DNA from: a virus
DNA length: 25,629 bases
Virus record (IMG/VR): IMGVR_UViG_3300025102_000254
Coordinates: 1 to 25,629 of that record
Direction: 5' to 3' (one strand)
Part shown: positions 10,527 through 25,629 of the stretch, piece by piece
How the letters are laid out: each line of letters begins with the position of its first letter
Position numbering within the stretch: position 1 is the first letter of the stretch
Made by a program: the position numbers and the translations under genes
The notes under the pieces: generated by a model
The model's input: the letters and a program-made list of their open reading frames with translations, nothing else
Told to the model about the DNA's origin: nothing
Database searches by the model: none

Positions 10527-12938
10527 CTATCCAACTGTTTGTAATACTATACATAACCTGGCTGGATCATTAGGTGTATTACTTCCTACGCCTTCTGATT
10601 CTACGTAAACATCACCGTGTTTTAAGCCAGCTGCAACGGCTTCAGCATTGTTTGCAAAACAATAATTACCAGCTCCAGCTTCAGCGTCTCCTTTAACACT
10701 ATCGTTAAATGCCGATGCAATATCTGTACCAAAACTTATTAAATTTTTAAAAGCTACATTACCTGCCGCTCCTTTGTTTCTTTGATTTGCATTTTTACCT
10801 AAAGCTAATCCACCATTAGATCCTTTTGTATTATACCCTAATGTTACTGATTCAAATGCGCCTATACTTAAAGCGCCAATATTTACTGAGTTCGCAGGAA
10901 TAGTACCCGTAGTATCGTTATAAGCTTCGTTACCTATGATAACAGTATTGCTTAAAACACCTGTTATTGTTCCATTACCATATTGAGCTCTTTGACCTAT
11001 TATAACGTTATTAGAATCAACAGCCGTCATACCTGCTTGACATCCTAAAAGTACGTTAGCTCTACCTGTTGTTAGATTAACACCTGTTTCAGACCCCACC
11101 ATAACATTCGCGTTAGCTGTTCCATCTGTAGTACCTGCTAATTCTCTTGCAGACTCGTCCCCAATAGCAATGTTACTTTGATTAGTATAATGTGTTTGGT
11201 TGTATGATCTTAAAGCAAGGTGCCCAATAGCTATATTACTATTGGATCTCAAACGTCTACCTGTTTGATGACCTATACATATGTTTCTATCAACTGCCTG
11301 TAGAGGAAGACCTGAGCCGCCATCATAACCAGCTTCTAACATCGGTTGATTACCTATGGCTATATTGTTTTGACCACGTGAATCTCCACTTACATCACCT
11401 CTTCCCGCTTCATAACCTATAAAATAATTGTAAGCATCTTCACCGTTATTATCGTCCCAAAACTCTCCAGCTTCAAAACCTATAGATATACCGTTTGTGT
11501 TGCTGCTTGATTGATAACCTATAGCTATAGCACCTGAACCTACAGTAGTTTGATAGCCTATTGCAGTATTATATATTTGGGTTTGCAGTTTTGGAGAACA
11601 TCGATAACCTATAGATAAGCCAACCCCGTTACTCCATGATTCTGTTCCAAAAACAAATCCAGCATCTCCTGATGAGTAAGAATTATATCCTATTACTATG
11701 TTTGGGAAACCAGTAGACTTCTGTAAAGTATTACTTCCAGCGCCCGCTCCTATCATTATATCTCTCCAACCTACTAGATTACCAGCACCAGCACCTATAA
11801 CTACAGAGTTATAATTTGCAAAAAATGAAGCAGCTCCACCAGGTGGATTTGCAATGTGTCCAGAATCTTTACCAATAACTACAGATCCCCTTAGCCAACT
11901 ACCAGAAGGATCACTATTAGCACCTTCTCCAATAACTACAAATTCACTTGTATTTGCTAAATCATTCGGCACTTGTTTAACGGCACTTTTTCCAATTGTT
12001 ACTGAGCGGTTTGCTGTGTGAGCCCCTTCATTATCACTACCTAATATAAGTGATCTAACTTGCCTACTATATATTTCTGTTAGAAAGTTTATTTCATTAC
12101 CAACTTCACCCACTTGCATGTAAGTATCTTCATCACCAATAACGCTAAAGTAATTGCTATCAGGAATGTTACTGGCTTCTAATATATCAGATTCTATAGG
12201 AGAGTTTGATGCATCACCAGACCACATTTTATTATGATTAAGAGTTAGCCCAGATGCACCACCACCATCAATAGTCAATTCTTTTAATGCAGAATTTAAA
12301 GTAGTAGTTATACCATTTGTACCTTTAAACTTTAAAGTTTGAGTTGTAAGACCTGTAGATATAACAGCTGTGTTTGGTGTCGCAGCATCATCAGATACAG
12401 TGAAAGAACCATTATTAGCTATTCTTACTGTGTAGGGCGAAGTTGTCGAGGGACCAACACCAACAGTAATTCCAGTACCTGAAGCTGCAAAATTTACTTG
12501 TTCCGCAGCTGACACAATTCTAGTTGTAGTAGAATCTCCTAAAATCCAGTTATAAGCTGGCCCTGCTCCACCTGGTATACTAACTGTAACGTCATCTCCT
12601 ACGTTACTTATTAAAACTCCAGATCCAATAAAATCGTAAGATGCTGTATTAGTAGTAATTGGTGTTCCTGCATATTTAGTTTCTAAAGAACTACCACTAC
12701 CACTTCCTTTTACTACTAAGTCAGTGTCTAATATTCCACCTTTATACCAATACTCCACAATATCAGCCCCAGCTATTATTAATCCAACTGTTAAACCTTC
12801 AAATCTTACTCCAGAACCTACAGCAGTGTTAGCTGCTAATTTAGCTGCAGTTACATCCACACCTGAGTATGGTCCGTATTTAACATCTACTGGAGCGTTT
12901 GTAGCTACGTTTAGGTTATCACTTAAAACTATTGCCAT
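10527..12938 (-). CDS. Tail fibre/adhesin with YadA-head-like IGxxA repeats
   Basis: The 803-residue protein starts with a fibre head shared by marine phages (VKYGPY at 19-24, VEYWYKGGILDTDLVVKG at 61-78). A beta-rich stalk reaches to about residue 295. From about 297 to 745 it carries around twenty loose repeats of the type I/V-x-IG-x-x-A/S-G or -S: VVIGEGA, SVVIGAGAG, IAIGYQSS, FIGYEAG, ICIGHQTG, VIIGQRA and LALGKNA. This is the signature of the left-handed parallel beta-roll in trimeric YadA-like heads. The last part (FNDSVKGDAEAGAGNYCFAN, about 757-776) is probably the C-terminal tip. The likely role is a trimeric receptor-binding fibre. It is the longest gene in the window. Confidence 0.8.
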   Translation of the reverse strand: MAIVLSDNLNVATNAPVDVKYGPYSGVDVTAAKLAANTAVGSGVRFEGLTVGLIIAGADIVEYWYKGGILDTDLVVKGSGSGSSLETKYAGTPITTNTASYDFIGSGVLISNVGDDVTVSIPGGAGPAYNWILGDSTTTRIVSAAEQVNFAASGTGITVGVGPSTTSPYTVRIANNGSFTVSDDAATPNTAVISTGLTTQTLKFKGTNGITTTLNSALKELTIDGGGASGLTLNHNKMWSGDASNSPIESDILEASNIPDSNYFSVIGDEDTYMQVGEVGNEINFLTEIYSRQVRSLILGSDNEGAHTANRSVTIGKSAVKQVPNDLANTSEFVVIGEGANSDPSGSWLRGSVVIGKDSGHIANPPGGAASFFANYNSVVIGAGAGNLVGWRDIMIGAGAGSNTLQKSTGFPNIVIGYNSYSSGDAGFVFGTESWSNGVGLSIGYRCSPKLQTQIYNTAIGYQTTVGSGAIAIGYQSSSNTNGISIGFEAGEFWDDNNGEDAYNYFIGYEAGRGDVSGDSRGQNNIAIGNQPMLEAGYDGGSGLPLQAVDRNICIGHQTGRRLRSNSNIAIGHLALRSYNQTHYTNQSNIAIGDESARELAGTTDGTANANVMVGSETGVNLTTGRANVLLGCQAGMTAVDSNNVIIGQRAQYGNGTITGVLSNTVIIGNEAYNDTTGTIPANSVNIGALSIGAFESVTLGYNTKGSNGGLALGKNANQRNKGAAGNVAFKNLISFGTDIASAFNDSVKGDAEAGAGNYCFANNAEAVAAGLKHGDVYVESEGVGSNTPNDPARLCIVLQTVG

Positions 12939-16564: not shown

Positions 16565-16593
16565 ATACATCTCTCCTACATTTGAGCATTTTG

Positions 16594-16624
16594 CATACTA
16601 AGTACGATACATATAAGATAATAT
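16594..16624 (+). promoter_or_regulatory. T7-like promoter P1
   Basis: This contains TACGA (16603-16607), 8 variable bases, then AGATAATAT, with the predicted +1 G at 16617. The upstream flank ACTAAG resembles the consensus ACTAAA. It is the first rightward promoter after the divergent region and leads to the 33-residue membrane peptide, with a 46-nt leader. Confidence 0.75.
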
Positions 16625-16662
16625 ACATGTAACTAAATTAATAATAACTTAAAACAAATAAC

Positions 16663-16764
16663 ATGAATAACTTAATTAACATTATCAAATCAAACTCTAT
16701 CTCCATCACAATGAATATTATATTCATATCATACTTCATCTTCTTATATTCAATAGCAATATAA
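16663..16764 (+). CDS. 33-residue hydrophobic peptide
   Basis: The short frame has a polar start (MNNLINIIKSNSISIT) followed by one membrane segment (NIIFISYFIFLYSIAI) and a stop. It is the first gene after promoter P1. Single-span early peptides of this size are common in phages and often act on host membranes, but there is no family match. The short length makes a chance frame possible; the promoter context is the main support. Confidence 0.45.
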   Translation: MNNLINIIKSNSISITMNIIFISYFIFLYSIAI

Positions 16765-16769
16765 TTAAT

Positions 16770-16801
16770 ACAAAGTAATAACGACTATACAAAGATAATA
16801 T
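16770..16801 (+). promoter_or_regulatory. T7-like promoter P2
   Basis: The core reads AACGA (16780-16784, one change from TACGA), then 8 bases and AGATAATAT, with the predicted +1 G at 16794. ACAAAGTAA stands upstream. The leader to the 71-residue gene at 16847 is 53 nt of A/T-rich sequence. Confidence 0.7.
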
Positions 16802-16846
16802 ATACAAATAAACTAAACTAATAATAACTAAATAAATATAACAATT

Positions 16847-17062
16847 ATGACTAATCAAATAACTAAATCAAGATTCATTATCTCTAACTCTCTACTAGGT
16901 TCTAACCTCATCATAACATTCACTAATAAAAAAGGCGAATCATATACATACGATCACGATCAAGTGTTTGCTAACAATCAAACAAGATTACTATCCATGA
17001 ACTGCTTCATTAAGTATGGCAATTACACTAACTCAAATAAAATACCTACTTGGGCTATATAA
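16847..17062 (+). CDS. Early small protein, paralogue of the gene at 17630
   Basis: The 71-residue protein aligns along its length with the 79-residue protein encoded at 17630. Shared elements are KSRF-I-I-S/RKSL-G, IITFTNKKGESYTYDHD versus IVTFTNSKGITYTYDHD, SMNCF-x-x-Y and YTNSN. It is small, beta-rich and without a membrane segment. The YTYDHD motif is the best conserved stretch. It looks like an early host-takeover protein that was duplicated; the target is unknown. Confidence 0.7.
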   Translation: MTNQITKSRFIISNSLLGSNLIITFTNKKGESYTYDHDQVFANNQTRLLSMNCFIKYGNYTNSNKIPTWAI

Positions 17063-17066
17063 TAAG

Positions 17067-17097
17067 CAAACTAAATACGAATAACTTAAGATAATAT
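17067..17097 (+). promoter_or_regulatory. T7-like promoter P3
   Basis: CAAACTAAATACGA, 8 bases, then AGATAATAT, with the predicted +1 G at 17090. It begins 5 nt after the preceding gene and leads to the 46-residue gene at 17121 with a 31-nt leader. Confidence 0.78.
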
Positions 17098-17120
17098 AAT
17101 AAACTAATAAAATAAATAAT

Positions 17121-17261
17121 ATGAATAATTTAACTAAAAAACAATCTCACGAAATTACTAATCTTTACGACATGCTTAGCAATGGCTGGCATTATACTAA
17201 TCATCCAATGCATTACAAGTTTATGCAAGCTCACAATGATTTACCTGATTACAATGAGTAA
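17121..17261 (+). CDS. 46-residue early hypothetical protein
   Basis: The protein is short, polar and helical at the start (MNNLTKKQSHEITNLYDML), then aromatic and His-rich (NGWHYTNHPMHYKFMQAH). The family is not recognised. It has its own promoter (P3), and the copy B hairpin begins 5 nt after its stop, which supports a monocistronic unit. Confidence 0.55.
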   Translation: MNNLTKKQSHEITNLYDMLSNGWHYTNHPMHYKFMQAHNDLPDYNE

Positions 17262-17265
17262 ACTA

Positions 17266-17308
17266 TGACAATAGCCTGTTACTCTTATATACTAACAAGC
17301 TAATGTCA
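17266..17308 (+). ncRNA. TGACA...TGTCA hairpin element, copy B
   Basis: The 43-nt hairpin has paired blocks TGACA (17266-17270)/TGTCA (17304-17308), AGC/GCT, and TGTTA (17277-17281)/TAACA (17293-17297), with an 11-nt loop. It is related to copy A on the other strand. It lies directly after the 46-residue gene, so it may end or process that transcript, or bind a regulator. No U-tract follows immediately, which argues against a classical terminator. Confidence 0.65.
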
Positions 17309-17410
17309 CACTACACTATTAATATTAATTAATATAACTATGTAAGTTATTGAGAAATCAAGTGTTGAACTATAAACTAATTTTTAACTAATAAACAAAT
17401 ATACACCTTT
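17309..17410. other. Intergenic A/T-rich spacer
   Basis: This is a roughly 100-nt stretch between the copy B hairpin and promoter P4. It is A/T-rich with repeated TAATATTAATTAATAT. No reading frame or convincing structure was found. Confidence 0.5.
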
Positions 17411-17442
17411 ACAAATTAAATACGACACTAAAAAGATAATAT
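17411..17442 (+). promoter_or_regulatory. T7-like promoter P4
   Basis: ACAAATTAAATACGA, 8 bases (CACTAAAA), then AGATAATAT, with the predicted +1 G at 17435. It leads to the 28-residue membrane peptide with a 32-nt leader. Confidence 0.78.
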
Positions 17443-17466
17443 AACTAAATAACAAAAAATAATAAA

Positions 17467-17553
17467 ATGATAATACTTATTTCCACTCTTACGCTAATTA
17501 TACCAATTATAATACTAGGCGATATTATTCACCAATTAATAACTAATAAATAA
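17467..17553 (+). CDS. 28-residue hydrophobic peptide
   Basis: The frame encodes a single hydrophobic helix (IILISTLTLIIPIIILG) with a short polar tail. It has its own promoter (P4) and nothing else in the unit. That is good evidence for expression despite the length, though a non-coding transcript is possible. A role in the host membrane is inferred. Confidence 0.45.
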   Translation: MIILISTLTLIIPIIILGDIIHQLITNK

Positions 17554-17559
17554 TAATTG

Positions 17560-17590
17560 CAAACTAAATACGACAAAGCAAAGATAATAT
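17560..17590 (+). promoter_or_regulatory. T7-like promoter P5
   Basis: AAACTAAATACGA, 8 bases (CAAAGCAA), then AGATAATAT, with the predicted +1 G at 17583. It leads to the paralogous gene at 17630 with a 47-nt leader. Confidence 0.78.
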
Positions 17591-17629
17591 AAACGTAAAC
17601 TAAATATAAATAAATAAAATATAATAACT

Positions 17630-17869
17630 ATGAAAACTAATAATTTAACAACAAAAAGATTTGTAATAAGAAAATCTTTAATCGGCGAAAACGCTATCGT
17701 AACTTTTACTAACTCAAAAGGTATAACTTATACTTATGACCATGACGAGATCTACTCTACGTTTCAAGAAAAATTCGAGTCAATGAATTGCTTTCAAGAG
17801 TATAAATCTTACACTAACTCTAATATTGTACCAAAATTCTGCAGAGAATTAGCTACAGTAAGTGAGTAG
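17630..17869 (+). CDS. Early small protein, paralogue of the gene at 16847
   Basis: This is the 79-residue partner of the protein at 16847. It keeps KRFVIRKSLIGENAIVTFTN, YTYDHDEIY, SMNCFQEYKSYTNSN and a longer, more polar C-terminus (KFCRELATVSE). It is beta-rich, with no signal or membrane segment. The two copies have separate promoters and lie about 570 bp apart, consistent with tandem duplication and divergence. The function is unknown. Confidence 0.72.
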   Translation: MKTNNLTTKRFVIRKSLIGENAIVTFTNSKGITYTYDHDEIYSTFQEKFESMNCFQEYKSYTNSNIVPKFCRELATVSE

Positions 17870-17906
17870 TAAACTAAACTCGTCGTTGATCACCATAATT
17901 TAGCGA

Positions 17907-17937
17907 GTATAAATAATACGAACACTTGGTGCAGCAC
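17907..17937 (+). promoter_or_regulatory. Degenerate promoter-like half motif
   Basis: AATACGAACACTT occurs here (TACGA at 17917-17921) with the same core and spacer start as copies P8 and P9, but the AGATAATAT initiation half is replaced by TGCAGCACA. It may be a weak or decayed promoter for the gene at 17957. The stretch before it (17870-17906) has a possible ACTCG/CGAGT stem. Confidence 0.35.
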
Positions 17938-17956
17938 AAACTAATAAATAATAACT

Positions 17957-18133
17957 ATGAATAACTTTGAATACGAGTTCGAGATCATACTTCCTGATGG
18001 TGAAACTACTTATCAGTACAATGACTCACCTAAACTAACTAATGACTTTATTGACTTCTTAAATGAAGTAGATATAGATATCACTAAATGTATTTACAAA
18101 GTATATAATTTAAAAACTGAACACTATGTATAA
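17957..18133 (+). CDS. 58-residue acidic hypothetical protein
   Basis: This small acidic protein begins MNNFEYEFEIILPDGETTYQ and has a helical FIDFLNEVDIDITKCIYK end. No family is recognised. Its last 8 nt overlap the next gene's ATG in another frame, so the two are coupled. It is preceded by the degenerate promoter motif. Confidence 0.6.
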   Translation: MNNFEYEFEIILPDGETTYQYNDSPKLTNDFIDFLNEVDIDITKCIYKVYNLKTEHYV

Positions 18134-18326
18134 TCCTAATAATCCCTCAAACTGGTCTTGGTCAAAAGCTTTCGCAGAAATGGAAAAGACTGTAAATCAA
18201 GCTGAACTCACTCAGCAATCTATTAATCACGTAATAAACTATACTGGTGAAGCTAATGGTGTTTTTATGACACTAAGCAAAAACCAACAAGATGATGTTT
18301 ACGAAATACTAGGTCAAATACTATGA
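18126..18326 (+). CDS. Hypothetical small helical protein
   Basis: This 66-residue polar protein begins MYNPNNPSNWSWSKAFAEME and ends in helices (AELTQQSINHVINYTGEA and LSKNQQDDVYEILGQI). It starts inside the end of the gene before it and stops over the next ATG (ATGA). The Trp/Ser-rich start resembles other small marine-phage proteins, but I cannot name a family. Confidence 0.6.
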   Translation: MYNPNNPSNWSWSKAFAEMEKTVNQAELTQQSINHVINYTGEANGVFMTLSKNQQDDVYEILGQIL

Positions 18327-18550
18327 TTAAAATAATACTAACCATAGCACAACTATTTCAACCATACGATCTACCTGAAGAAGCTTATTGGAATGAAGCA
18401 ATAGATAATGTTCAAGATCAAATGACTTGGATAAGAGAAGATCTAAATAATGGTAGAATAACTGAAGAACAAGCAGAAATATCCTTACAAAATTTAGATA
18501 GAACTGAAGATCTACTTATAAAATTATACAAATTAAATACGAACAAGTAA
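18323..18550 (+). CDS. Hypothetical helical protein with hydrophobic start
   Basis: The 75-residue protein has a hydrophobic N-terminus (MIKIILTIAQLFQPYD) that could be a signal peptide or a buried helix. Two acidic helices follow (EEAYWNEAIDNVQDQMTWI and TEEQAEISLQNLDRTEDL). It overlaps the gene before it by ATGA. Promoter P6 overlaps its last codons, so its 3-prime end doubles as a regulatory sequence. The design recalls the gene at 18975, but clear paralogy was not shown. Confidence 0.6.
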   Translation: MIKIILTIAQLFQPYDLPEEAYWNEAIDNVQDQMTWIREDLNNGRITEEQAEISLQNLDRTEDLLIKLYKLNTNK

Positions 18551-18559
18551 AGATAATAT
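18528..18559 (+). promoter_or_regulatory. T7-like promoter P6 (inside a gene end)
   Basis: ACAAATTAAATACGA, 8 bases (ACAAGTAA), then AGATAATAT, with the predicted +1 G at 18552. It lies across the last codons of the gene at 18323. The following ATG at 18564 gives a 12-nt leader. Confidence 0.8.
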
Positions 18560-18563
18560 AAAT

Positions 18564-18827
18564 ATGAATAATCACAAATACATATCAACTAAATATCTCG
18601 ACGCCATCATTCTCGATGACGACTACATCAAACTAGTAATTAACAAAGTACAAAAATCTCCGTACGGTTATACTAAACGAGATCTATTATCTTCACCATT
18701 CGGTGTAAAAACAAAAGCATTCACTTACGATTTTGTAAGTAATAAGGTAGACGAGGTGTATTCTACCTTTCACAAAGACGAAATACACGAGTTAATAACC
18801 AAAGTAAAAAAGTATAAAAATGGTTAA
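18564..18827 (+). CDS. Hypothetical basic early protein
   Basis: The 87-residue basic protein has beta strands and helices in a mixed pattern: KYISTKYLDAIILDDDYIKL, KSPYGYTKRDLLSSPFG, then a helical end (HELITKVKKYKNG). No motif is recognised. It starts 12 nt after the +1 of P6 and overlaps the next small membrane gene by 8 nt. Confidence 0.6.
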   Translation: MNNHKYISTKYLDAIILDDDYIKLVINKVQKSPYGYTKRDLLSSPFGVKTKAFTYDFVSNKVDEVYSTFHKDEIHELITKVKKYKNG

Positions 18828-18978
18828 ACAAGCAATAAAAAAGTTCTGCTACAAAGCAGTCGAGTGGCACATGCTTAAAATATATGCAACAATTATGACT
18901 ACAATATTCGTAGGAATATGGTTAACAGCGATGGTCGCTGTAGTAAGAGAAATGTTACAAACATTCTTTGGAATATGA
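18820..18978 (+). CDS. Small single-span membrane protein
   Basis: The 52-residue frame has a basic start (MVKQAIKKFCYKAVEW) and one membrane segment (IMTTIFVGIWLTAMVAVV, about 25-42). Its ATG lies inside the end of the gene before it and its stop overlaps the next ATG (ATGA). Positive charges before the helix suggest an N-in orientation. The function is unknown. Confidence 0.6.
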   Translation: MVKQAIKKFCYKAVEWHMLKIYATIMTTIFVGIWLTAMVAVVREMLQTFFGI

Positions 18979-19199
18979 AAAAACTATTATTAATACCAAT
19001 GTTATTATTTTCACAACATCCAAGTGATATAAATGAAAGAAAAACTATTGAAGGAGTTTTAATTAATGTTAAAGAATTACAAAGATGGGTTAACATAGAT
19101 TTCAACGCGAAAGTGATAGATCCAGAAACTGCTAGTATGTACTACAGTTTATTAGAAGTAACTATAAACCAATTAGAAAGTATAAAAGATGATAAGTAA
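18975..19199 (+). CDS. Small protein with signal-peptide-like start
   Basis: I choose the ATG at 18975 (74 residues), because it makes the usual ATGA overlap and removes a frame that duplicates the previous gene. The N-terminus MKKLLLIPMLLFSQHPS looks like a short signal peptide without a lipobox cysteine. The rest is helical and polar (VLINVKELQRWVNIDF, then LLEVTINQLESIKDD). It may act outside the cytosol or at the membrane. The function is unknown. Confidence 0.6.
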   Translation: MKKLLLIPMLLFSQHPSDINERKTIEGVLINVKELQRWVNIDFNAKVIDPETASMYYSLLEVTINQLESIKDDK

Positions 19200-19341
19200 A
19201 ACAATAAAACAGTTGCAAAACCTGTATTCTTGGAATCAGTTTTACCAAGACAGGAAGATGAAGGCTGAAATGAAAAAGTGCCAAAGTGAAATTCACCACT
19301 TGAAAAATGTGATTAACGAATTAAAAACTAAGAAAAAATGA
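19189..19341 (+). CDS. 50-residue basic coiled-coil protein
   Basis: This small, highly basic protein is helical throughout: KTIKQLQNLYSWNQFYQ, KMKAEMKKCQSEIHHLKN and VINELKTKKK. The spacing of Leu, Ile and Met suggests a short coiled coil. It overlaps the gene before it by 11 nt and the gene after it by ATGA. No family is recognised. Confidence 0.6.
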   Translation: MISKTIKQLQNLYSWNQFYQDRKMKAEMKKCQSEIHHLKNVINELKTKKK

Positions 19342-19628
19342 ATAGTACTAATGCAATAGAAAAAGCGCTAAAAGAAAGAGTAAGTGCAGAGTGCAGAGAA
19401 ATAGTTAACGACTTTATATCTGACTTAGAAAAACTATCAAAGAAATATGGTGGAGCTAGTAGCTTTTATGATTTTAAAGCTTGTAAAAGTAGTGATACTA
19501 GAGAATTTATGGTAACAGGAACTCATGGAGTGACAGAAGTATTACATAGAATGATACTAGATAATCACGGTAGTGCTATGTTAAAGTTTAAATCAAAAGA
19601 ATTACTAAATAAACTAGAATTAATATGA
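19338..19628 (+). CDS. Hypothetical early protein
   Basis: The 96-residue protein has an amphipathic N-terminal half (IEKALKERVSAECREIVND, then FISDLEKLSKKYGGASSFYD), a glycine-rich FMVTGTHGVTEVLHRM turn, and a helical end (KFKSKELLNKLELI). There is no catalytic pattern and no membrane segment. It is joined to both neighbours by ATGA overlaps. Confidence 0.6.
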   Translation: MNSTNAIEKALKERVSAECREIVNDFISDLEKLSKKYGGASSFYDFKACKSSDTREFMVTGTHGVTEVLHRMILDNHGSAMLKFKSKELLNKLELI

Positions 19629-19738
19629 GTTGCCCATGGGAAGTAGCTTACCAACTACATAAAGATAGGTACACTAAAGACGAAATAGATGACATGCTAT
19701 TATGTGAAATTAACGAACTAATATACGATTATGAGTAA
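19625..19738 (+). CDS. 37-residue hypothetical protein
   Basis: This frame (MSCPWEVAYQLHKDRYTK, then DEIDDMLLCEINELIYDYE) is acidic and helical. It sits exactly between two ATGA-type junctions, overlapping the previous stop by four bases and the next gene by eight. The helical DEIDDMLLCEINELIYDY end may be a protein-interaction helix. The function is unknown. Confidence 0.6.
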   Translation: MSCPWEVAYQLHKDRYTKDEIDDMLLCEINELIYDYE

Positions 19739-19931
19739 GAGTAAACAAATATATTGGAATCCTGACACTATAGATCATTTTATATTCATAAGTAATTATG
19801 CAGATGTAGATCAAGTGTTGACACAAGTTGAACAGTTTGTAAGTATAGACTGCGAACTACAAGGAAATGATACTGAGAAAGACTTAGTAGAAGACTTAAT
19901 GAATAAAATATACGAAAGAAGATATGAGTAA
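19731..19931 (+). CDS. Acidic hypothetical protein
   Basis: The 66-residue protein has an aromatic N-terminal part (SKQIYWNPDTIDHFIFISN) and an acidic helical end (VDQVLTQVEQFVSIDCELQG, then DLVEDLMNKIYERRYE). No family is recognised. It overlaps the genes on both sides by eight bases. Confidence 0.55.
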   Translation: MSKSKQIYWNPDTIDHFIFISNYADVDQVLTQVEQFVSIDCELQGNDTEKDLVEDLMNKIYERRYE

Positions 19932-20157
19932 TATGAGTTACTGCAGATTTGAAAATACTCTGCGAGATTTACAAGACTGTGTATGGGCACTTGAAGAAGG
20001 TGAACTAGAGAATGGTGGATCAGAAATGGACGCAGCAGTTGAAATGCTAGAAGCATGCAGAGAATATTTAGATTTAGAATACAAAATAGATAAAATAATT
20101 GAAGAAGATGGAGACGGTGAGTCAGTATTCTTCACTAAAAACTACGGAAAAATATGA
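19924..20157 (+). CDS. Conserved phage protein (MSYCRFENTLRDLQDC type)
   Basis: The 77-residue protein contains MSYCRFENTLRDLQDCVW (4-21), a start shared by many small phage proteins. A long acidic helical body follows (EEGELENGGSEMDAAVEML). The second Met (residue 4) is the likely real start, at 19933. The conserved opening suggests a fixed binding role. Biochemical function is unknown. Confidence 0.7.
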   Translation: MSNMSYCRFENTLRDLQDCVWALEEGELENGGSEMDAAVEMLEACREYLDLEYKIDKIIEEDGDGESVFFTKNYGKI

Positions 20158-20357
20158 ATGAAATACAAGCAATAGAGGCTATAACAAAAGATATCTTAGC
20201 CGGATACTATGGTAATACACAAAAAGCAGGCACTGAAACACAGAAATGGCAATATGCTCACAACCAAGCAAGGAAAATTTTTGAAGGTGAGTTACTAATA
20301 GATCCTGACCACACTTGGTTTGATGATCAAGGCGATGTAAAGTTTGAAGAACTATGA
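20154..20357 (+). CDS. Hypothetical early protein
   Basis: The 67-residue protein is helical and polar: IQAIEAITKDILAGYYGNTQ, WQYAHNQARKIFEGELLIDP, then a short acidic end (DHTWFDDQGDVKFEEL). It overlaps both neighbours by ATGA. The Trp and Tyr content in the middle helix suggests a packed fold. The function is unknown. Confidence 0.6.
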   Translation: MNEIQAIEAITKDILAGYYGNTQKAGTETQKWQYAHNQARKIFEGELLIDPDHTWFDDQGDVKFEEL

Positions 20358-20947
20358 GAAGAAGACAAATAAGATTGTCAAAAGATTGGAGAAATTACAA
20401 AAATAAACACCCAAATAGTAAATGGTTGGTCTGTGGAATAGGTCCTTCTATTAAAAATATAAATTTTAATGAGTATAAAGATCATTTACTTATAGGTGTA
20501 AACGATATAGAAAAAATAATTAAACCTGACTATCTAGTTATAGTAGATAGAATAGGAACTTTTGATGGCGAAAGAAGAAATACTATAATAAATACTAAGT
20601 GTGAAGAGATATTTGTTAACAATCCTCAATTTTCAAGAGAATTAGGAAACTTTGATCATCAAAGATTAATAAATATACCATTAATAAACATAATAAAAAA
20701 ACCTAATCTTTCAACTGAAAAAATAGTTTTTAGTAATAATTCTACATTTGTAGCCTGTGACTTAGCTAGAATAATGGGAGGAACAGATATTAAGTTAATA
20801 GGAGTTGACTTTACCGACCACAAATCTTTAGATAATCCTAAACAATTAGAAAGAATAAATAATGACTACAGCATATTAAACAAAGCTTTTAAACAAAGAA
20901 ATATAAAATTAACTAATTTATCACAAACAAGCAAATTAAAACTATGA
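20354..20947 (+). CDS. MptE/DUF115-like Rossmann-fold protein
   Basis: The 197-residue protein has a nucleotide-binding-style pattern: WLVCGIGPSI (24-33), LLIGVNDIEKIIKPDYLVIVD (45-65), then SNNSTFVACDLARIMGGTD and IKLIGVDFTDH. The NNS-x-F-x-A-x-x-L-A-x-x-x-G-x-x-x-I-x-L-(I/L)-G-x-D block recalls DUF115/MptE-like proteins (6-hydroxymethylpterin diphosphokinase-related) and glycosyl-type phage enzymes. It may act on a nucleotide or nucleotide sugar. It sits among unnamed early genes, so its substrate cannot be inferred. Confidence 0.65.
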   Translation: MRRRQIRLSKDWRNYKNKHPNSKWLVCGIGPSIKNINFNEYKDHLLIGVNDIEKIIKPDYLVIVDRIGTFDGERRNTIINTKCEEIFVNNPQFSRELGNFDHQRLINIPLINIIKKPNLSTEKIVFSNNSTFVACDLARIMGGTDIKLIGVDFTDHKSLDNPKQLERINNDYSILNKAFKQRNIKLTNLSQTSKLKL

Positions 20948-21072
20948 AATTAACTGAAAAAGATTACAATACACTTGCTAGACTTAGATGGCTGCAGGTA
21001 AATGAATTAGCTCTTAAATACTCTAATGATGCGGAGTATGGTGAAGTAGTAAGAGAACTAATAAAAAAATAA
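20944..21072 (+). CDS. 42-residue basic hypothetical protein
   Basis: This short basic helical protein (MKLTEKDYNTLARLRWLQVN, then ELALKYSNDAEYGEVVRELI) is joined to the Rossmann-like gene by an ATGA overlap. It ends at the left edge of promoter P7, so it is the last gene of its unit. The function is unknown. Confidence 0.6.
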   Translation: MKLTEKDYNTLARLRWLQVNELALKYSNDAEYGEVVRELIKK

Positions 21073-21073
21073 T

Positions 21074-21105
21074 ACAAACTAAAAACGATTACTTATAGAT
21101 AATAT
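21074..21105 (+). promoter_or_regulatory. T7-like promoter P7
   Basis: ACAAACTAAAAACGA (AACGA variant), 8 bases (TTACTTAT), then AGATAATAT, with the predicted +1 G at 21098. The ATG at 21110 follows after a 12-nt leader. Confidence 0.75.
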
Positions 21106-21109
21106 AAAT

Positions 21110-21271
21110 ATGAACGACAAAAATAAAATACAAACAATAAAATTTTATCCAAGCGACAGATCTAAGATAAAATTAGGAAACAAATTATACAAAGGTTATA
21201 CTATAGACAGCATTCCAGACGAGTGTAACTCATGGTTTAATTACAAAGGTTTAACTTTTGTAGTCAACTAA
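21110..21271 (+). CDS. 53-residue hypothetical protein
   Basis: The basic, beta-rich protein (KIQTIKFYPSDRSKIKLGNK, then YTIDSIPDECNSWFNYKG) is the only gene in the P7 unit before the structured RNA region. Its compact strands may make a small barrel. It is not recognised. The stop is 5 nt before the structured RNA stem. Confidence 0.6.
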   Translation: MNDKNKIQTIKFYPSDRSKIKLGNKLYKGYTIDSIPDECNSWFNYKGLTFVVN

Positions 21272-21276
21272 AACAT

Positions 21277-21546
21277 TGACAGGTGAATATGTGTAAGACT
21301 AAGAAGGGCTCGTTTCGAGACAGAAAGCATCATCTGCTATGGCACACCTGTCATACTTAAACCACGACTTCAACCCACCGTGTCGTAGCGGTGAAGAAGA
21401 CAAACAGTGGGGTTGAGTGACGGCTCAACTTGGACAGCGAGGTCAGGTGTATACTGATTAAATGAGGTAAATGTTCGCATAGAAAACCCATCGATGAAGT
21501 TACAGACTGTTCTAGACATGAGAGGTTCGAATCCTCTCTCTCGCTC
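21277..21546 (+). ncRNA. Large structured RNA candidate with tRNA-like T-arm
   Basis: This GC-richer, gene-free region folds into several stems. They are TGACAGGTG (21277-21285)/CACCTGTCA (21345-21353), CACCG/CGGTG (21376-21380/21389-21393), GTTGAG/CTCAAC (21412-21417/21424-21429) as an alternative to CAACCC/GGGTTG, and TCAG/CTGA (21443-21446/21454-21457). The 3-prime end has GAGAGG, loop TTCGAAT, CCTCTC (21520-21538), a perfect T-arm. AGCGAGG (21436-21442) pairs with TCTCGCT (21539-21545) like an acceptor stem, but the gap is 77 nt with no anticodon arm. A tRNA, or a tmRNA with a usual tag (no GCAGCTTAA-type end), is not supported. It may be a stable regulatory or tRNA-mimicking RNA. It lies between the P7 and P8 units. 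Confidence 0.6.
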
Positions 21547-21550
21547 TAAA

Positions 21551-21582
21551 ACAAATTAAATACGAACACTTATAGATAATAT
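21551..21582 (+). promoter_or_regulatory. T7-like promoter P8 (best consensus match)
   Basis: ACAAATTAAATACGA, 8 bases (ACACTTAT), then AGATAATAT, with the predicted +1 G at 21575. Against T7 AATACGACTCACTATAG it keeps AATACGA and TATAG at equal distance. The ATG at 21587 gives a 12-nt leader. Confidence 0.82.
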
Positions 21583-21586
21583 ATGT

Positions 21587-21802
21587 ATGAATAAAATATG
21601 TAAATGTGGCAATGAGATCCACCCAGTAAGAATTAAATATGGTTATAACAATTGTGTAGCATGTTCTACCGTTGAGAAATACGGTTGTGCTCCAATCATT
21701 AATCATAAAACAGGTAATAGTATAGAAATATTGTCTCGAGCAGATGCAAAGCGCATCGCCAAATTAACTAGGCGTAAAGGTTACGGCACAATGCTAAGAT
21801 AA
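21587..21802 (+). CDS. Small zinc-ribbon protein
   Basis: The 71-residue protein has Cys5, Cys7, Cys23 and Cys26 in KICKCGNEIHPVRIKYGY then NNCVACS, a compact treble-clef zinc ribbon in the manner of DksA/TraR-type fingers. A conserved C-terminal part follows: KYGCAPIINHKTGN and RIAKLTRRKGYG. It could bind RNA polymerase or nucleic acid. The CPV-like NHKTGN-x-I-x-x-(L/M)-S pattern is seen in other marine phages. It follows P8 with a 12-nt leader. Confidence 0.72.
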   Translation: MNKICKCGNEIHPVRIKYGYNNCVACSTVEKYGCAPIINHKTGNSIEILSRADAKRIAKLTRRKGYGTMLR

Positions 21803-21803
21803 T

Positions 21804-21974
21804 ATGACAGATAAAGAAGCATTACAAGAAATAGTATACATGGTTAATTATTATGTAAATAATAGAAATACTTTAATAAATATTAATGAGCAAAATTATG
21901 AGTTTATAAATAATTTAATAGAATTTTTAGAAGAAAATGTAATACATTGCGCTATGGATAATAACTACAAATGA
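21804..21974 (+). CDS. 56-residue acidic helical protein
   Basis: This small acidic protein (MTDKEALQEIVYMVNYYVNN, then YEFINNLIEFLEENVIHCAM) is probably two helices. It starts just after the zinc-ribbon stop, and its own stop overlaps the next ATG (ATGA). The function is unknown. Confidence 0.6.
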   Translation: MTDKEALQEIVYMVNYYVNNRNTLININEQNYEFINNLIEFLEENVIHCAMDNNYK

Positions 21975-22096
21975 AAAAAATTAAAGTAACCATGAAGGAA
22001 ATATACGATGCTATGCGTCCTTCAGTAGAAAAGAATAAAAAGAAATATACACGCAAAACTAAACACAAAAATGGCGAAGAAAAGAACAATGAATGA
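21971..22096 (+). CDS. 41-residue basic peptide
   Basis: The frame is lysine-rich: MKKIKVTMKEIYDAMRPSVE, then KNKKKYTRKTKHKNGEEK. It overlaps the previous stop by four bases and extends 26 nt into the following gene in another frame. The basic tail would suit nucleic-acid binding, but chance cannot be excluded for so short a frame. Confidence 0.5.
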   Translation: MKKIKVTMKEIYDAMRPSVEKNKKKYTRKTKHKNGEEKNNE

Positions 22097-22442
22097 GCTT
22101 AGACAAACTAAAGAATATAAAATTGATCCAGTACAACAAGTGTTAGCTCAACAAATAGAAGAACTAGCAGAAGCAGACAAGTACGATGGTGATATACATA
22201 AAGAATGTCCATTAGATCCTGTTGAAGAAGCTAAAATACTAATAGTAGATAAGATAACTAAACACTTTCACGATGTGATGTTTGAAATGGTGTGTGAAGA
22301 AATGAGTAAAAACTATGTATTTCAAACACAAAACTATTTCACTGATGCAGGATACGATCAGTTTGAAGATGAATGGTTTGAATTCTATCATAAACATCAC
22401 GGTGATATTATTTATGAAGTAATGCAAAATATTACAAACTAA
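22071..22442 (+). CDS. Conserved marine-phage protein (MAKKRTMNELRQTKEY type)
   Basis: The 123-residue protein begins MAKKRTMNELRQTKEY, an opening I recognise in many marine phages. It has DPVQQVLAQQIEELAEADKY, a central PVEEAKILIVDKITKHFHD helix, and an acidic aromatic C-terminal half (FEDEWFEFYHKHHGDIIYEV). No enzymatic motif is seen. Its last codons overlap promoter P9. The function is unknown; early regulation is possible. Confidence 0.65.
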   Translation: MAKKRTMNELRQTKEYKIDPVQQVLAQQIEELAEADKYDGDIHKECPLDPVEEAKILIVDKITKHFHDVMFEMVCEEMSKNYVFQTQNYFTDAGYDQFEDEWFEFYHKHHGDIIYEVMQNITN

Positions 22443-22465
22443 ATACGAACACTATAAGATAATAA
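22434..22465 (+). promoter_or_regulatory. T7-like promoter P9 (inside a gene end)
   Basis: ACAAACTAAATACGA, 8 bases (ACACTATA), then AGATAATAA, with the predicted +1 G at 22458. It overlaps the last codons of the gene at 22071. The ATG at 22477 follows after a 19-nt leader. Confidence 0.78.
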
Positions 22466-22476
22466 TAATAAAAAAT

Positions 22477-22704
22477 ATGACATTATACGACAAACTTAAA
22501 CCAGAAATCAAAGCTAAACTCGAAGAAAACTATAAAGAATATAGTACATCAGTAGGGTATATCTCTGATAAACTAAAACAAACATACCATTACAGTGATC
22601 TAAAAGTTGATGACGTAAAAACTATATGCACATTTGGTGATGTATGGCACTATGATTTGACTCAAAGTGATATACTGTATGGAGATTGGCTATTAAACAA
22701 ATAA
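22477..22704 (+). CDS. Hypothetical small early protein
   Basis: The 75-residue protein has a helical start (LYDKLKPEIKAKLEENYKEY) and a strand-rich aromatic end (VKTICTFGDVWHYDLTQSDI). No family is recognised. It is the first gene of the P9 unit. Confidence 0.6.
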   Translation: MTLYDKLKPEIKAKLEENYKEYSTSVGYISDKLKQTYHYSDLKVDDVKTICTFGDVWHYDLTQSDILYGDWLLNK

Positions 22705-22714
22705 ATAAAATCTA

Positions 22715-23059
22715 ATGACAGAAAAACAATATGAAGAAGCGATGTTTGCACTAGGTTGCAAAGACGTTACAAGTAAAACACAAAAGAAAAACGGTACTAT
22801 GGCTTTCAGGCTTCCTGATGGTATAAATATGGTTACTGAACACAAGACAGGTTATATAAGAAGAACTATGTTAAGTAATACAGGTAGAGTATCACACTGC
22901 TACCAACTAAATCCAACATATAAAGCTGATTATCAAAGTATAGGTTACAATGGTAAACTATATAAAGGTTATCACCAGAAAAGAACTTTGATATGGTCTA
23001 GAAAAGAAAGACTTAAAAGACTATTTTTATACACAATTAAAGCAGTAAACAATGAGTAA
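22715..23059 (+). CDS. Hypothetical basic early protein
   Basis: The 114-residue protein is basic and beta-rich, beginning MTEKQYEEAMFALGCKDVT. It has AFRLPDGINMVTEHKTGYIR and RRTMLSNTGRVSHCYQLN in the middle, and a basic helical C-terminus (WSRKERLKRLFLYTIKAV). The charge suggests nucleic-acid contact. It overlaps the next gene by 8 nt. Confidence 0.6.
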   Translation: MTEKQYEEAMFALGCKDVTSKTQKKNGTMAFRLPDGINMVTEHKTGYIRRTMLSNTGRVSHCYQLNPTYKADYQSIGYNGKLYKGYHQKRTLIWSRKERLKRLFLYTIKAVNNE

Positions 23060-23510
23060 TTACGCAAGAGAAGGACACATGCTCGATGAAAGAATGATTG
23101 AGCTTGTTAAAAACCATTTAGAACTATCAATATCTACCAGTGTAAATGACTTTGATAATGTAGATTGTATGATCTATAATGAATCAAGTGCAGATGGTTA
23201 TGATCTTTGGGTTGTAACTAATGATACTAGAAACGTAAGTATATGTGAAGATGTATATTATTATGAAAGTGATCTTGCAAATGCTTTTGAAGAGCAAGTA
23301 AGATGGGGTGATAAAACTTTTTACATTTGTGAATATGTATTTGAAGATGCTTATATTGAAGACAAACTACTTGAAATGTTTTCAGAAAATGTAGAAGATA
23401 TTATAGTAAATGATGAACTAGATATTACACTAGAAGAAATTAATTATTTAAAAGAAGAATATGGATTCGGAGAAGAAACTGAAAAAGCCGACAGCACCCA
23501 AGTGGTTTAA
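23052..23510 (+). CDS. Acidic hypothetical protein
   Basis: The 152-residue protein is strongly acidic. It has a helical opening (ERMIELVKNHLELSISTSV), a beta-rich middle (DGYDLWVVTNDTRNVSICED) and an acidic end (NVEDIIVNDELDITLEEINY). Its final 50 nt also encode the start of the next gene in another frame. Such acidic early proteins can mimic DNA, but this is speculative. Confidence 0.6.
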   Translation: MSNYAREGHMLDERMIELVKNHLELSISTSVNDFDNVDCMIYNESSADGYDLWVVTNDTRNVSICEDVYYYESDLANAFEEQVRWGDKTFYICEYVFEDAYIEDKLLEMFSENVEDIIVNDELDITLEEINYLKEEYGFGEETEKADSTQVV

Positions 23511-23742
23511 AGGCATGATATATACAAAAGGTGAAGAAGTTACAAACCCTTTTTCAGGTCAAAGCTATGAGCTAACTGGCTTAGAACTAAGCATTTACGA
23601 TTTTATAATAGGTTCACAAATGGTTATTGAAAAAATAGGCTGGATGAATTCTAAAACAAGTAAAGCTCAAAAAGAAATGTCTAAAGCATTGAACTGGTTT
23701 AGGACTAATAATCCTGAAGCTTACTACGTGTTGTTAGATTAG
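23461..23742 (+). CDS. Conserved marine-phage protein (NPFSGxxxxLTxxELSIYDF type)
   Basis: The 93-residue protein contains NPFSGQSYELTGLELSIYDF (29-48), then IIGSQMVIEKIGWMNSKTSK and a helical end ending EAYYVLLD. I recognise the NPFSG...LSIYDF motif as frequent in marine-phage early regions, but no function is known to me. It starts 50 nt inside the gene before it. The ncRNA element begins 15 nt after its stop. Confidence 0.65.
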   Translation: MDSEKKLKKPTAPKWFKGMIYTKGEEVTNPFSGQSYELTGLELSIYDFIIGSQMVIEKIGWMNSKTSKAQKEMSKALNWFRTNNPEAYYVLLD

Positions 23743-23756
23743 TAGTAGTTTAGTTT

Positions 23757-23854
23757 CCACGAATAAGCGCGTGAGGCGAGTAACCGCGGCATTAGGCAAA
23801 GGTATCTTACTCACTTGGCAAGCTCGTACCGTAAATGGTACGGGCTATTCGTGG
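23757..23854 (+). ncRNA. Structured RNA element, copy 1
   Basis: A closing stem joins CCACGAATA (23757-23765) to TATTCGTGG (23846-23854). Inside, AGCTCGTACC (23821-23830) pairs with GGTACGGGCT (23837-23846) around a GTAAAT loop, and GAGTAA (23778-23783) can pair with TTACTC (23807-23812). The closing stem and final hairpin recur at 25556-25603 with compensatory changes. It lies between the genes at 23461 and promoter P10. It has no T-run after it, so a classical intrinsic terminator is not clear. Confidence 0.7.
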
Positions 23855-23857
23855 TAT

Positions 23858-23889
23858 ACAAACTAAATACGATAACTAATAGATAATAT
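23858..23889 (+). promoter_or_regulatory. T7-like promoter P10
   Basis: ACAAACTAAATACGA, 8 bases (TAACTAAT), then AGATAATAT, with the predicted +1 G at 23882. It starts 4 nt after the structured RNA element. The ATG at 23894 follows after a 12-nt leader. Confidence 0.8.
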
Positions 23890-23893
23890 TATT

Positions 23894-24193
23894 ATGGATA
23901 AAAAAACAATGAATGAACTAGCTGATATTATTATAGCTAAACTTGAAGTTAAACAAGCTCAATGGGATGATGAATTCCATAACTCTATTCAAGATCTTTA
24001 TGGTCAAGAATCTAGTAAAGAAGCTTTTGTTATGACTGAAGAGCAAGCTTTAATAGGTGAGCTAGCAAGATTACAAACTCTGCTTATGATCTTTGAGAAT
24101 AACGAAGAATACGAAAAAGCAGCGATTATACTAAGCAAATTAAATGCAATTAAAACTAAATTAAGAAAAGGCGATTATAATGAAGACGATTAA
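23894..24193 (+). CDS. Acidic helical hypothetical protein
   Basis: The 99-residue protein is a chain of helices: TMNELADIIIAKLEVKQAQW, then EEQALIGELARLQTLLMIFE and YEKAAIILSKLNAIKTKLR. The leucine spacing suggests a helical bundle or coiled coil. It overlaps the DNA ligase start by 14 nt, so it is likely coupled to it; a ligase partner role is possible but unproven. Confidence 0.65.
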   Translation: MDKKTMNELADIIIAKLEVKQAQWDDEFHNSIQDLYGQESSKEAFVMTEEQALIGELARLQTLLMIFENNEEYEKAAIILSKLNAIKTKLRKGDYNEDD

Positions 24194-25028
24194 ACCTATG
24201 CTAGCGCATAAATATAATCCTGACAAAGCTGATTACCCTGCATACATACAGCCAAAACTAGACGGCGTAAGATGTGTATTTACAAAAGACGGTGCATACA
24301 GTAGAACAGGTAAAGAGTTTAAAAATGTAGATCACATCAAAAAAGACTTAGAAGTAGTATTTAACAGATACCCAAATCTTATACTAGATGGCGAATTATA
24401 TAACCACGGATTAAAAGATGACTTTGAAAAGATTATTTCATTAGTTAGAAAAACTAAACCAACACAAGATCACAAAGACGAAGCAGCTCAACTAGTACAA
24501 TATCATATGTATGATGTAGCTAGTTTTCCACACGCTACATACAACTGGCGTATGAACTTTATAAACACACTAAACGAATCTGCTGTAGTTAAAACTAGCA
24601 CTTGTCTATGTTTTATTGAAACTAAAGTTGTACTAGATTATGACGAAGCAGTTAAACAACACAAAAAATACCTAAAACTAGGTTATGAAGGTAGTATATA
24701 CAGATCTATTGATGGTAAATACAAAAATACTAGGTCATGGGACTTAATGAAGTTCAAAGACTTTGAAGATTCAGAAGCCACAATTGTTGGCTATGAACTA
24801 GGTAAAGGTAAGAGGCAAGGCACGCTTGGTAAGTTCATCATGCAAGATGACGAAGGTATACAGTTCGGCTGCCCACCGGGCAAAGGTTATACCTACAAGG
24901 ATCTAGCCGCTATGATCGATAACATTAGTGACTTTATAGGTCAGCGTGCTACCTTTACTTATTTTCAACGAACACAAGCAGGTTCTTACAGACACCCGCT
25001 TTACAAATGCATACGTAACTACGAATGA
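24180..25028 (+). CDS. ATP-dependent DNA ligase
   Basis: The 282-residue protein is a compact ATP-dependent ligase that seals nicks during replication and repair. Motif I is PKLDGVR with the adenylated Lys26, motif III is LDGELY with Glu72, motif IV is GYEGSIYR with Glu170, and motif V is LMKFKDF with Lys191 and Lys193. A C-terminal OB-like domain (about 197-282) has EATIVGYELGKGKRQGTLGK then ATFTYFQRTQAGSYRHP. The length is near T7-type ligases minus extra inserts. All key motifs look intact. It overlaps the following gene by four bases (ATGA). Confidence 0.93.
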   Translation: MKTIKPMLAHKYNPDKADYPAYIQPKLDGVRCVFTKDGAYSRTGKEFKNVDHIKKDLEVVFNRYPNLILDGELYNHGLKDDFEKIISLVRKTKPTQDHKDEAAQLVQYHMYDVASFPHATYNWRMNFINTLNESAVVKTSTCLCFIETKVVLDYDEAVKQHKKYLKLGYEGSIYRSIDGKYKNTRSWDLMKFKDFEDSEATIVGYELGKGKRQGTLGKFIMQDDEGIQFGCPPGKGYTYKDLAAMIDNISDFIGQRATFTYFQRTQAGSYRHPLYKCIRNYE

Positions 25029-25510
25029 ATATATTTTATTTACACAGAGACCCTTATAAAGCAGCTGAGTATCAATACAACAAACACGTTGTTAAGATGA
25101 TCTTAGAATCAGCCCAAATGCTTTGTACAGCACATCATGAGATAATGGGAGATGATGCAGACGTACCATACAAACGTGCACATGTAAATCACCCATCTAC
25201 AGTGTGGGCTAGACAAAATAAAAATCATTACAGATGGCTGTTTAATCACATGGTTGCGTTGGGTCATGAATATACGGCAAGATACGGTAAAACACATTTA
25301 TCAATTAACAAATGCTTTTTACCATTATACAGATATCCTGTAGGTATACCTGATGGTGTGTTTGAACAACCACCTCAATGCATGCCTGATGAATATAAAG
25401 ATGACTGCAGCGTGAAAGCTTACTGGAACTATTACATAGGTGAAAAGCACACTGTTGCAGCTAAAAACGAAAAAATATATGAGAAAATTGATATGGAAGC
25501 TTTACAATGA
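25025..25510 (+). CDS. Conserved phage protein, possibly repair-related (KHVVKMILESAQML family)
   Basis: The 161-residue protein begins MNIFYLHRDPYKAAEYQYNK, followed by HVVKMILESAQMLCTAHHE. It has HPSTVWARQNKNHYRWL in the middle, GHEYTARYGKTH, then PPQCMPDEYKDD and a terminal AYWNYYIGEKH. This combination is a widespread phage family, and some entries are named pyrimidine dimer glycosylase-like, but I cannot confirm that. Several conserved His, Arg and Glu residues would suit an enzyme. Co-expression with the ligase fits DNA repair. The family is known, the function uncertain. Confidence 0.65.
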   Translation: MNIFYLHRDPYKAAEYQYNKHVVKMILESAQMLCTAHHEIMGDDADVPYKRAHVNHPSTVWARQNKNHYRWLFNHMVALGHEYTARYGKTHLSINKCFLPLYRYPVGIPDGVFEQPPQCMPDEYKDDCSVKAYWNYYIGEKHTVAAKNEKIYEKIDMEALQ

Positions 25511-25514
25511 TAAC

Positions 25515-25565
25515 ATGATAAGCGAAGAAGTAGCGCATTTGCTACTAGATAAATACTACGAGTAA
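25515..25565 (+). CDS. 16-residue microORF
   Basis: ATG at 25515, then MISEEVAHLLLDKYYE and a TAA at 25563-25565. It sits 4 nt after the preceding stop and contains an AGTAGC/GCTACT hairpin (25529-25546). It may be a translated micropeptide or simply the leader of the RNA element at 25556. Little more can be said. Confidence 0.35.
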   Translation: MISEEVAHLLLDKYYE

Positions 25566-25603
25566 TAACTAGCTCATACTGGAAACGGTATGGGCTTTCG
25601 TAG
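25556..25603 (+). ncRNA. Structured RNA element, copy 2
   Basis: The closing stem CTACGA (25556-25561)/TCGTAG (25598-25603) encloses AGCTCATACT (25571-25580) paired with GGTATGGGCT (25587-25596), capped by GGAAAC, which closes as a GAAA tetraloop. Compared with copy 1, pairs change together (C-G to T-A in the closing stem, G-C to A-T in the hairpin). The long inner domain of copy 1 is replaced by 9 nt. CTCATAC/GTATGAG (to 25610) is an alternative outer pairing. Confidence 0.65.
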
Positions 25604-25612
25604 GTATGAGAC

Positions 25613-25629
25613 GATACAAACACGAATTA
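25613..25629 (+). promoter_or_regulatory. Possible truncated promoter at window end
   Basis: GATACAAACACGAATTA follows the copy 2 element at the same place where promoter P10 follows copy 1. It has the ACAAAC start and an ACGA core but lacks the TAAAT block. The window ends before the AGATAATAT half could be seen. Confidence 0.3.

Follow-up and report, generated by a model that had tools for sequence, protein, structure and literature searches.

Modular RNA elements of tRNA-like topology at gene junctions of a phage genome and its relatives

The DNA analysed here, which we call the window, is the whole stretch of 25,629 nucleotides of the IMG/VR virus record IMGVR_UViG_3300025102_000254. Its terminase is 58% identical to that of the uncultured podovirus MW202828 and about 35% identical to those of Cellulophaga and Flavobacterium phages, a similarity that makes a flavobacterial host likely. 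The 3859-aa giant protein of MW202828 gave no match to a PHROG family. The window also encodes a phage chaperonin GroEL (Pfam Cpn60; 8335-10133) with a GroES-like ORF directly downstream and, at 25025-25510, a match to the pyrimidine dimer DNA glycosylase family adjoining an ATP-dependent DNA ligase. The ligase is encoded between two small structured RNAs, elements 1 and 2, whose parts and neighbours are listed in Table 1. Element 2 overlaps the end of a 28-aa ORF, the last codons of which form the 5' strand of its closing stem, and in relatives copies of the element likewise lie downstream of an ORF end matching that of the 28-aa ORF; the AUG of the following ORF stands 2 nt past the stem.

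Table 1. Features of the two elements and their surroundings (window positions)
Feature	Position	Strand	Evidence
T-arm-bearing tRNA-like structure, variable interior	21436..21545	+	T-arm/acceptor scan; junction comparison
its acceptor, AGCGAGG/TCTCGCT	21436-21442/21539-21545	+	
its T-arm, GAGAGG-TTCGAAT-CCTCTC	21520-21538	+	
Element 1	23757..23854	+	fold z, scaffold covariation, homologues
Element 1 P1 (closing stem)	23757-23764/23847-23854	+	
Element 1 side-arm module (slot A)	23765-23820	+	recurrence in relatives
Element 1 P2 hairpin, loop CGTAAATG	23821-23829/23838-23846	+	
Promoter-like repeated block directly 3' of element 1 (TACAAACTAAATACGA..AGATAATAT; TACAAACTAAATACGATAACTAATAGATAATATTAT)	23857..23891	+	repeats
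28-aa ORF (..LLLDKYYE*) 5' of element 2	25479..25565	+	sequence reading; relatives
Element 2	25556..25603	+	fold z; same-junction homologues in L012, L017, L023, L061
Element 2 P1	25556-25562/25597-25603	+	
Stop codon of upstream ORF, inside the 8-nt linker of element 2	25563-25565	+	
Element 2 P2, GAAA loop 25582-25585	25571-25581/25586-25596	+	
Start of next ORF (MRRYKHEL.., leaves window)	25606..25629	+	sequence; L061 homologue MRNYKHEL

Both elements are built alike: inside the closing stem, P1, lie a slot of variable content, slot A, and then a hairpin, P2, with the 3' strands of P2 and P1 joined directly. The P1 strand reads CCACGAA or CTACGAG, and P2 has the sequence AGCTC-R-TAC/GTA-Y-GGGCT with a conserved U-G wobble. 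Folding z-scores, computed against dinucleotide shuffles, were -4.5 for element 1 folded alone and -5.5 to -7.2 for element 2, varying with the stretch folded, and for neither element did any of 200 shuffles equal the native sequence. A sequence-only reading of the window had proposed two related structured RNAs at these very coordinates, and with folding scores far below those of the shuffles it proved right. The closing stem and the AGCTC-R-TAC hairpin are indeed present in both, the two copies differ by the compensatory exchanges it had claimed (C-G to T-A in P1, G-C to A-T in P2), and one copy, element 2, carries the GAAA tetraloop. The great difference in the size of the inner domain was also seen correctly, although the 55 and 9 nt given for it measured 56 nt in slot A of element 1 and 8 nt in the linker that takes its place in element 2.

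Relatives were gathered through the ligase gene, which gave 66 loci from viral contigs, and by a conserved 20-base pattern, which had matches in 34 stretches; among these loci and stretches we found 55 non-identical copies of the element. All 24 close-relative contigs contained one to four copies each and none of the eight distant contigs contained any, about 26 nearly identical bases recurring at one to four sites per genome, and all elements found sit in one region of the genome, near the ligase gene. Window-type elements also occur in tandem, two or three together, on the reverse strand of L100 (about 11600-11940) and in L004 (3280-3530). Alignment of one 32-base scaffold per copy yielded 30 distinct rows, in which the 5' strand of P1 was chosen mostly by sequence and not by pairing; 13 of these choices were amended manually, and five copies were left out as unclear. 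In these 30 rows, 95.6% of the cells were paired, and double-sided changes were present at 5 pairs and in 22 cells, a number that 0 of 500 shuffles reached; as a control, sliding the partner by 1-3 columns gave at most 3 double-changed cells. One copy, in L004, has a G-C to C-G change inside P2. Since the pairs at columns 6-7 are unpaired in 4-8 rows, P1 should be taken as a stem of 5 to 8 bp, and in three of the 55 copies (L006, L015 and L020) it apparently has no 5' partner. The compensatory change in the scaffold is selection at the RNA level, and further homologues with covariation, the lack of which had been set beforehand as a ground for refutation, were thus found. Rfam, at gathering as well as permissive thresholds, returned only chance-level matches for the window region, a collection of 50,697 known-phage records contained no homologue of element 1, and a search of open-licence papers gave no description of such elements. 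Two pattern matches in 257 billion bases of bacterial genomes were disregarded because they are close to chance expectation (an estimated 4 or so).

Recurring hairpin modules are housed both in slot A, which across the copies spans 0 to about 110 nt, and in the P2 loop, called slot B, of 7 to 63 nt. The module TTAAACTGTCG..ACAGGT occupies slot A or slot B depending on the genome (L014 against L062 and L085), and CTGAATAGGCCCGATCAGCAGG stands alone in L007 and L020 but nested in L005. The side arm of element 1 consists of an outer arm, GCGCGTGAG..CTTACTCACTTGGC, around the internal-loop motif ACCGCGGC-loop-GCAAAGGT, 23783-23803. The outer arm is found with another interior in L005, L037 and L004, and also within larger RNAs of the distant relatives L036, L038 and L066; the inner motif recurs in the T-arm RNAs described below, and a circularly permuted version of it, GCAAAGG-loop-CCGCGGC, was noticed by inspection. 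In one recurrent module, represented by 11 aligned sequences, 6 of 8 pairs were double-changed with 100% pairing. Modules common to element slots and to the arms of the T-arm family were detected in 5 of 58 slots (E<0.01, 78-97% identity) and in 0 of 290 shuffled controls.

Two further observations concern these modules. A larger branched RNA, CGAGGTGAGGGTGGTAGCGCGTGAG..CTCACTTGGCAGAACGGCAGGATAAAGC..CACACCTGCCCGACCTCG, contains the outer module of element 1, whole or partial, in L036 (3140-3370), L038 (2950-3105), L064 (2910-3150), L066 (2955-3215) and L106 (300-380). The recurrent module GCGAATAAATAAC, whose interiors are nested and variable, was seen in L018, L029, L042, L043, L108, L126, L144, L161, L165, L177, L184 and L202; read as codons it gives Ala-Asn-Lys-stop, and a 6-nt insertion in L108 retains the frame. 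This frame, GCG AAT AAA TAA, resembles a mini tag, a reading that was set aside since not all copies keep the frame, which is broken in L053.

A scan for a T-arm together with an acceptor stem revealed many non-canonical tRNA-like structures among the loci, where ARAGORN reported ordinary tRNAs only, and these in a few of the loci. One such structure lies in the window (Table 1), its folding energy alone being non-significant (z -0.5); it belongs to a noncoding stretch of about 280 nt (21271-21545) that also has nested hairpins, TGACAGGTG..CACCTGTCA, and is followed by a promoter-like block at 21551. The largest T-arm family, GGGNGTG-AAATGGTTAG-module arm-AAC-T-arm-CACNTCC-A, comprises 76 copies of roughly 45-150 nt with a swappable module arm, located in L016, L024, L026, L029-L034, L042, L044, L054, L067 and many of L108-L203. 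Its best Rfam match, obtained with the L034 copy, is tmRNA (RF00023) at 28.4 bits and E 2e-10 against a gathering score of 47; where tested, the family drew no ARAGORN or Rfam-threshold call, and the known-phage collection held no full-length member. All pairs are retained in this family, pair 4-69 varies between C-G, A-U and G-C, and beside it G3:U70, the alanine identity pair, is kept in 24 of 25; judged by these patterns, the family shows selection at the RNA level. L052 additionally carries, at about 2890-3045, a tRNA-like gene, missed by ARAGORN, in which a D-arm and an anticodon-like arm are accompanied by a variable arm of great length that resembles the modules.

The two kinds of RNA alternate at orthologous junctions. 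At the junction that follows the FNYKGLT gene, a T-arm RNA is present in 6 loci including the window, a window-type element in 9 and neither in 5; at the next junction a window-type element occupies 4 loci and the T-arm family 2, and at neither junction does any locus have both. Judged by this exchange and by the sharing of modules, the elements of the window seem to stand in functionally for tRNA-like structures, with which they share the topology, a longer hairpin taking the place of the T-arm.

The position of the elements relative to genes is uneven on their two sides. Among the 51 copies whose next gene could be read, 42 have its AUG close behind P1, at 1 nt in 33 and at 2 nt in 9, and this holds across many of 15 unrelated protein clusters downstream. 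On the upstream side there are 14 clusters, and the stop codon there lies anywhere from about 0 to over 100 nt ahead of P1. In the T-arm family the AUG is 3 nt past the acceptor stem in 9 of the 76 copies. Such a fixed 3' edge and floating 5' edge fit cleavage at the 3' base of P1 better than translational coupling. In a minority of copies, element 1 among them, a promoter stands between the element and the next gene. The promoter-like block after element 1 is one of eight to nine copies in the window; counted as ACAAACTAAATACGA..AGATAATAT (16591-23901), the repeat has about ten copies, all on the + strand. Both elements had been placed by the sequence-only reading just before an ACAAAC promoter, which is borne out for element 1 by the repeated block that follows it but not for element 2, where the ACAAAC at 25616 is made of the codons TAC AAA CAC of the ORF beginning at 25606 and so is no promoter. 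By itself, ACAAAC would be expected 20 times in the window and is present 33 times.

The elements have an acceptor-like P1 of 7 bp, an exchangeable and nested module arm at the place of the D and anticodon arms, and P2 in the position of a T-arm. Because of this architecture and the exchange with tRNA-like structures, we favour, tentatively, the interpretation that they are tRNA-mimicking processing cassettes at gene junctions that would give near-leaderless mRNAs. The cassette would be recognised by nucleases of tRNA maturation (RNase P for the 5' base, RNase Z for the 3' base) or by a counterpart from the phage or its host, the polycistronic transcript would be cut, and the next mRNA would then start essentially at its own AUG; where a promoter follows, as at element 1, the cassette would set the 3' end of the upstream transcript. 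In vitro, RNase P cleaves hairpins composed of acceptor stem, T-stem and T-loop alone (PMC11143913), and in mitochondria mRNAs are freed by tRNA excision, the established tRNA punctuation (PMC8601606). Against processing, P2 has no T-loop (TTCRANN) and 9-11 bp instead of 5 bp, so neither RNase P nor RNase Z can be counted on to recognise it, the missing T-loop being the main weakness. Moreover, the near-leaderless argument does not apply to the minority of copies, element 1 among them, that have a promoter between them and the next gene, and adjacency to the AUG alone could reflect compaction, since elsewhere in these compact genomes, as at 21800-21804 of the window, a start codon directly follows the preceding gene. 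Processing had earlier been linked to T7-like polymerase units, for which there was no evidence: a PF00940 search of 18 contigs found no match to a T7-like RNA polymerase, the control genomes being equally silent.

A quite different role, which we regard as unlikely though worth keeping in view, is that of trans-acting structured small RNAs, in which the scaffold releases and stabilises a discrete RNA and the modules do its work, perhaps as decoys of factors for translation, ribosome rescue or defence in the host, the scaffold of the relatives being a tmRNA-like alanine-type acceptor domain. It would account for modules that nest, move between scaffolds and are themselves selected as RNA (6 of 8 pairs double-changed), and for a T-arm family that best matches tmRNA in Rfam and keeps G3:U70 beside a varying pair; however, element 2 keeps the full scaffold although its 8-nt linker makes it virtually module-free, and a purely trans-acting role leaves the tight placement before start codons unexplained. 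Somewhat less probable again, in our estimate, is that the conserved cassettes serve as homology for swapping neighbour genes, in the manner of PeSLs, promoter-stem-loop cassettes of T4-type phages reportedly dealt with by Arbiol in 2010 and Comeau in 2014. In T4-like phages gene shuffling is reportedly mediated by PeSLs (cited in PMC4503421), and the nearly identical 26 or so bases at one to four sites per genome, the 15 downstream and 14 upstream gene clusters and the promoters adjacent to some copies would suit such a role. Shuffling, however, explains neither the compensatory changes, the conserved layout and the nested modules nor why T-arm RNAs, whose sequence is different, can take the place of the element at one and the same junction, and the elements found are confined to one genome region near the ligase gene.

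A translational control leader, in which P1 beside the AUG shuts the start region until the upstream gene is translated, seems improbable to us: an AUG 1-2 nt past P1 agrees with it, as does the P1 5' strand of element 2, which is the end of the upstream ORF and would be opened by a translating ribosome, but the upstream stop may lie at P1 (about 0 nt) or over 100 nt ahead of it while the distance to the AUG is fixed, and in some copies a promoter separates the element from the next gene. We give hardly any credence to an intrinsic transcription terminator ahead of a promoter, a role that the sequence-only reading had also offered. Element 1 does lie between a gene and a promoter, and there is a GC-containing hairpin followed by 3-4 U; yet this U run is too short and itself paired in P1, a scan of 20900-25629 for a GC-rich hairpin and then at least 5 T in 8 bases found 0 sites, most copies stand directly before a start codon with no intervening promoter, and the T-arm RNAs that replace the element have no U run. 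Small ribozymes (hammerhead, twister and others) gave no match when compared by eye with the loops, and integron attC sites were discounted, given the RNA covariation of the scaffold and the replacement of one module by another in its side arm.

Beyond the processing cassettes that we favour, we can envisage, as a more speculative and on balance doubtful extension, that the phages hold a pool of nested, swappable RNA modules on tRNA-like scaffolds, some of them tmRNA acceptor domains without a message, and that these scaffolds both punctuate transcripts and, as free small RNAs, act on ribosome rescue or translation in the host; the elements of the window would then be a branch that has exchanged its T-arm for a longer hairpin. 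Two kinds known already are tRNA-like structures of viruses and cassettes at gene junctions, and we call the elements a variant of these; should RNA data reveal discrete products, their modular, nested and exchangeable arms could make them more than that. If the reading that we favour is right, bacterial viruses would cut their own messages with tRNA mimics as mitochondria do with tRNAs, and some marine phages would own a system in which a shared scaffold takes small RNA modules in exchange for one another. The curated thresholds of Rfam admit neither the window-type element nor the tmRNA-like family, and the elements with their T-arm relatives are candidate test substrates for RNase P, RNase Z, alanyl-tRNA synthetase and SmpB.

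Compared with tRNA (RF00005), the elements share the 7-bp acceptor-like stem (P1 of 7-8 bp) and a next helix on the 3' strand with zero linker, but have no D arm, anticodon arm or T-loop; P2, with 9-11 bp and loops such as GAAA or CGTAAATG, falls outside the T-arm definition of a 5-bp stem and a TTCRANN loop, and in the window ARAGORN called no tRNA and Rfam gave no gathering match. As in mitochondrial tRNA punctuation, their place is between genes, the following AUG being 1-2 nt off, and cleavage is presumed in their case. The tRNA-like domain of tmRNA (RF00023) also combines an acceptor stem, a hairpin abutting its 3' strand, no anticodon and a replaced interior, whereas the elements have no T-loop, G3:U70, mRNA-like domain or Rfam match. 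The mRNA-like domain, with its tag frame and pseudoknots, is absent from the window interiors of 8-56 nt, which drew no ARAGORN or Rfam tmRNA call, and the tmRNA domain with G3:U70 and a T-arm is found only in the T-arm family of the relatives, under the gathering score. Thus, having no T-loop, the elements are not tRNAs or tmRNAs. PeSLs, as they appear through PMC4503421, resemble them as repeated junction stem-loops that are sometimes adjacent to promoters and have shuffled neighbour genes, and differ in that the elements have a three-way tRNA-like fold, exchangeable nested modules and no terminator signature. A PeSL joins an early promoter to a stem-loop at shuffled gene junctions; the elements show the stem-loop and the shuffled neighbours, have a promoter in a minority of copies and mostly stand straight before a start codon. 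In the early genes of T7, intergenic RNase III processing hairpins divide the polycistronic transcript; the elements, in contrast, are junctions with a module arm, and the T-arm replacement points to enzymes of the tRNA type. Fungal mitochondria contain mobile bypass or double-hairpin elements, short and exchangeable in compact genomes, which insert in mitochondrial coding or spacer sequence, whereas in the phages the scaffold stands at gene junctions and the hairpin modules fill set positions within it.
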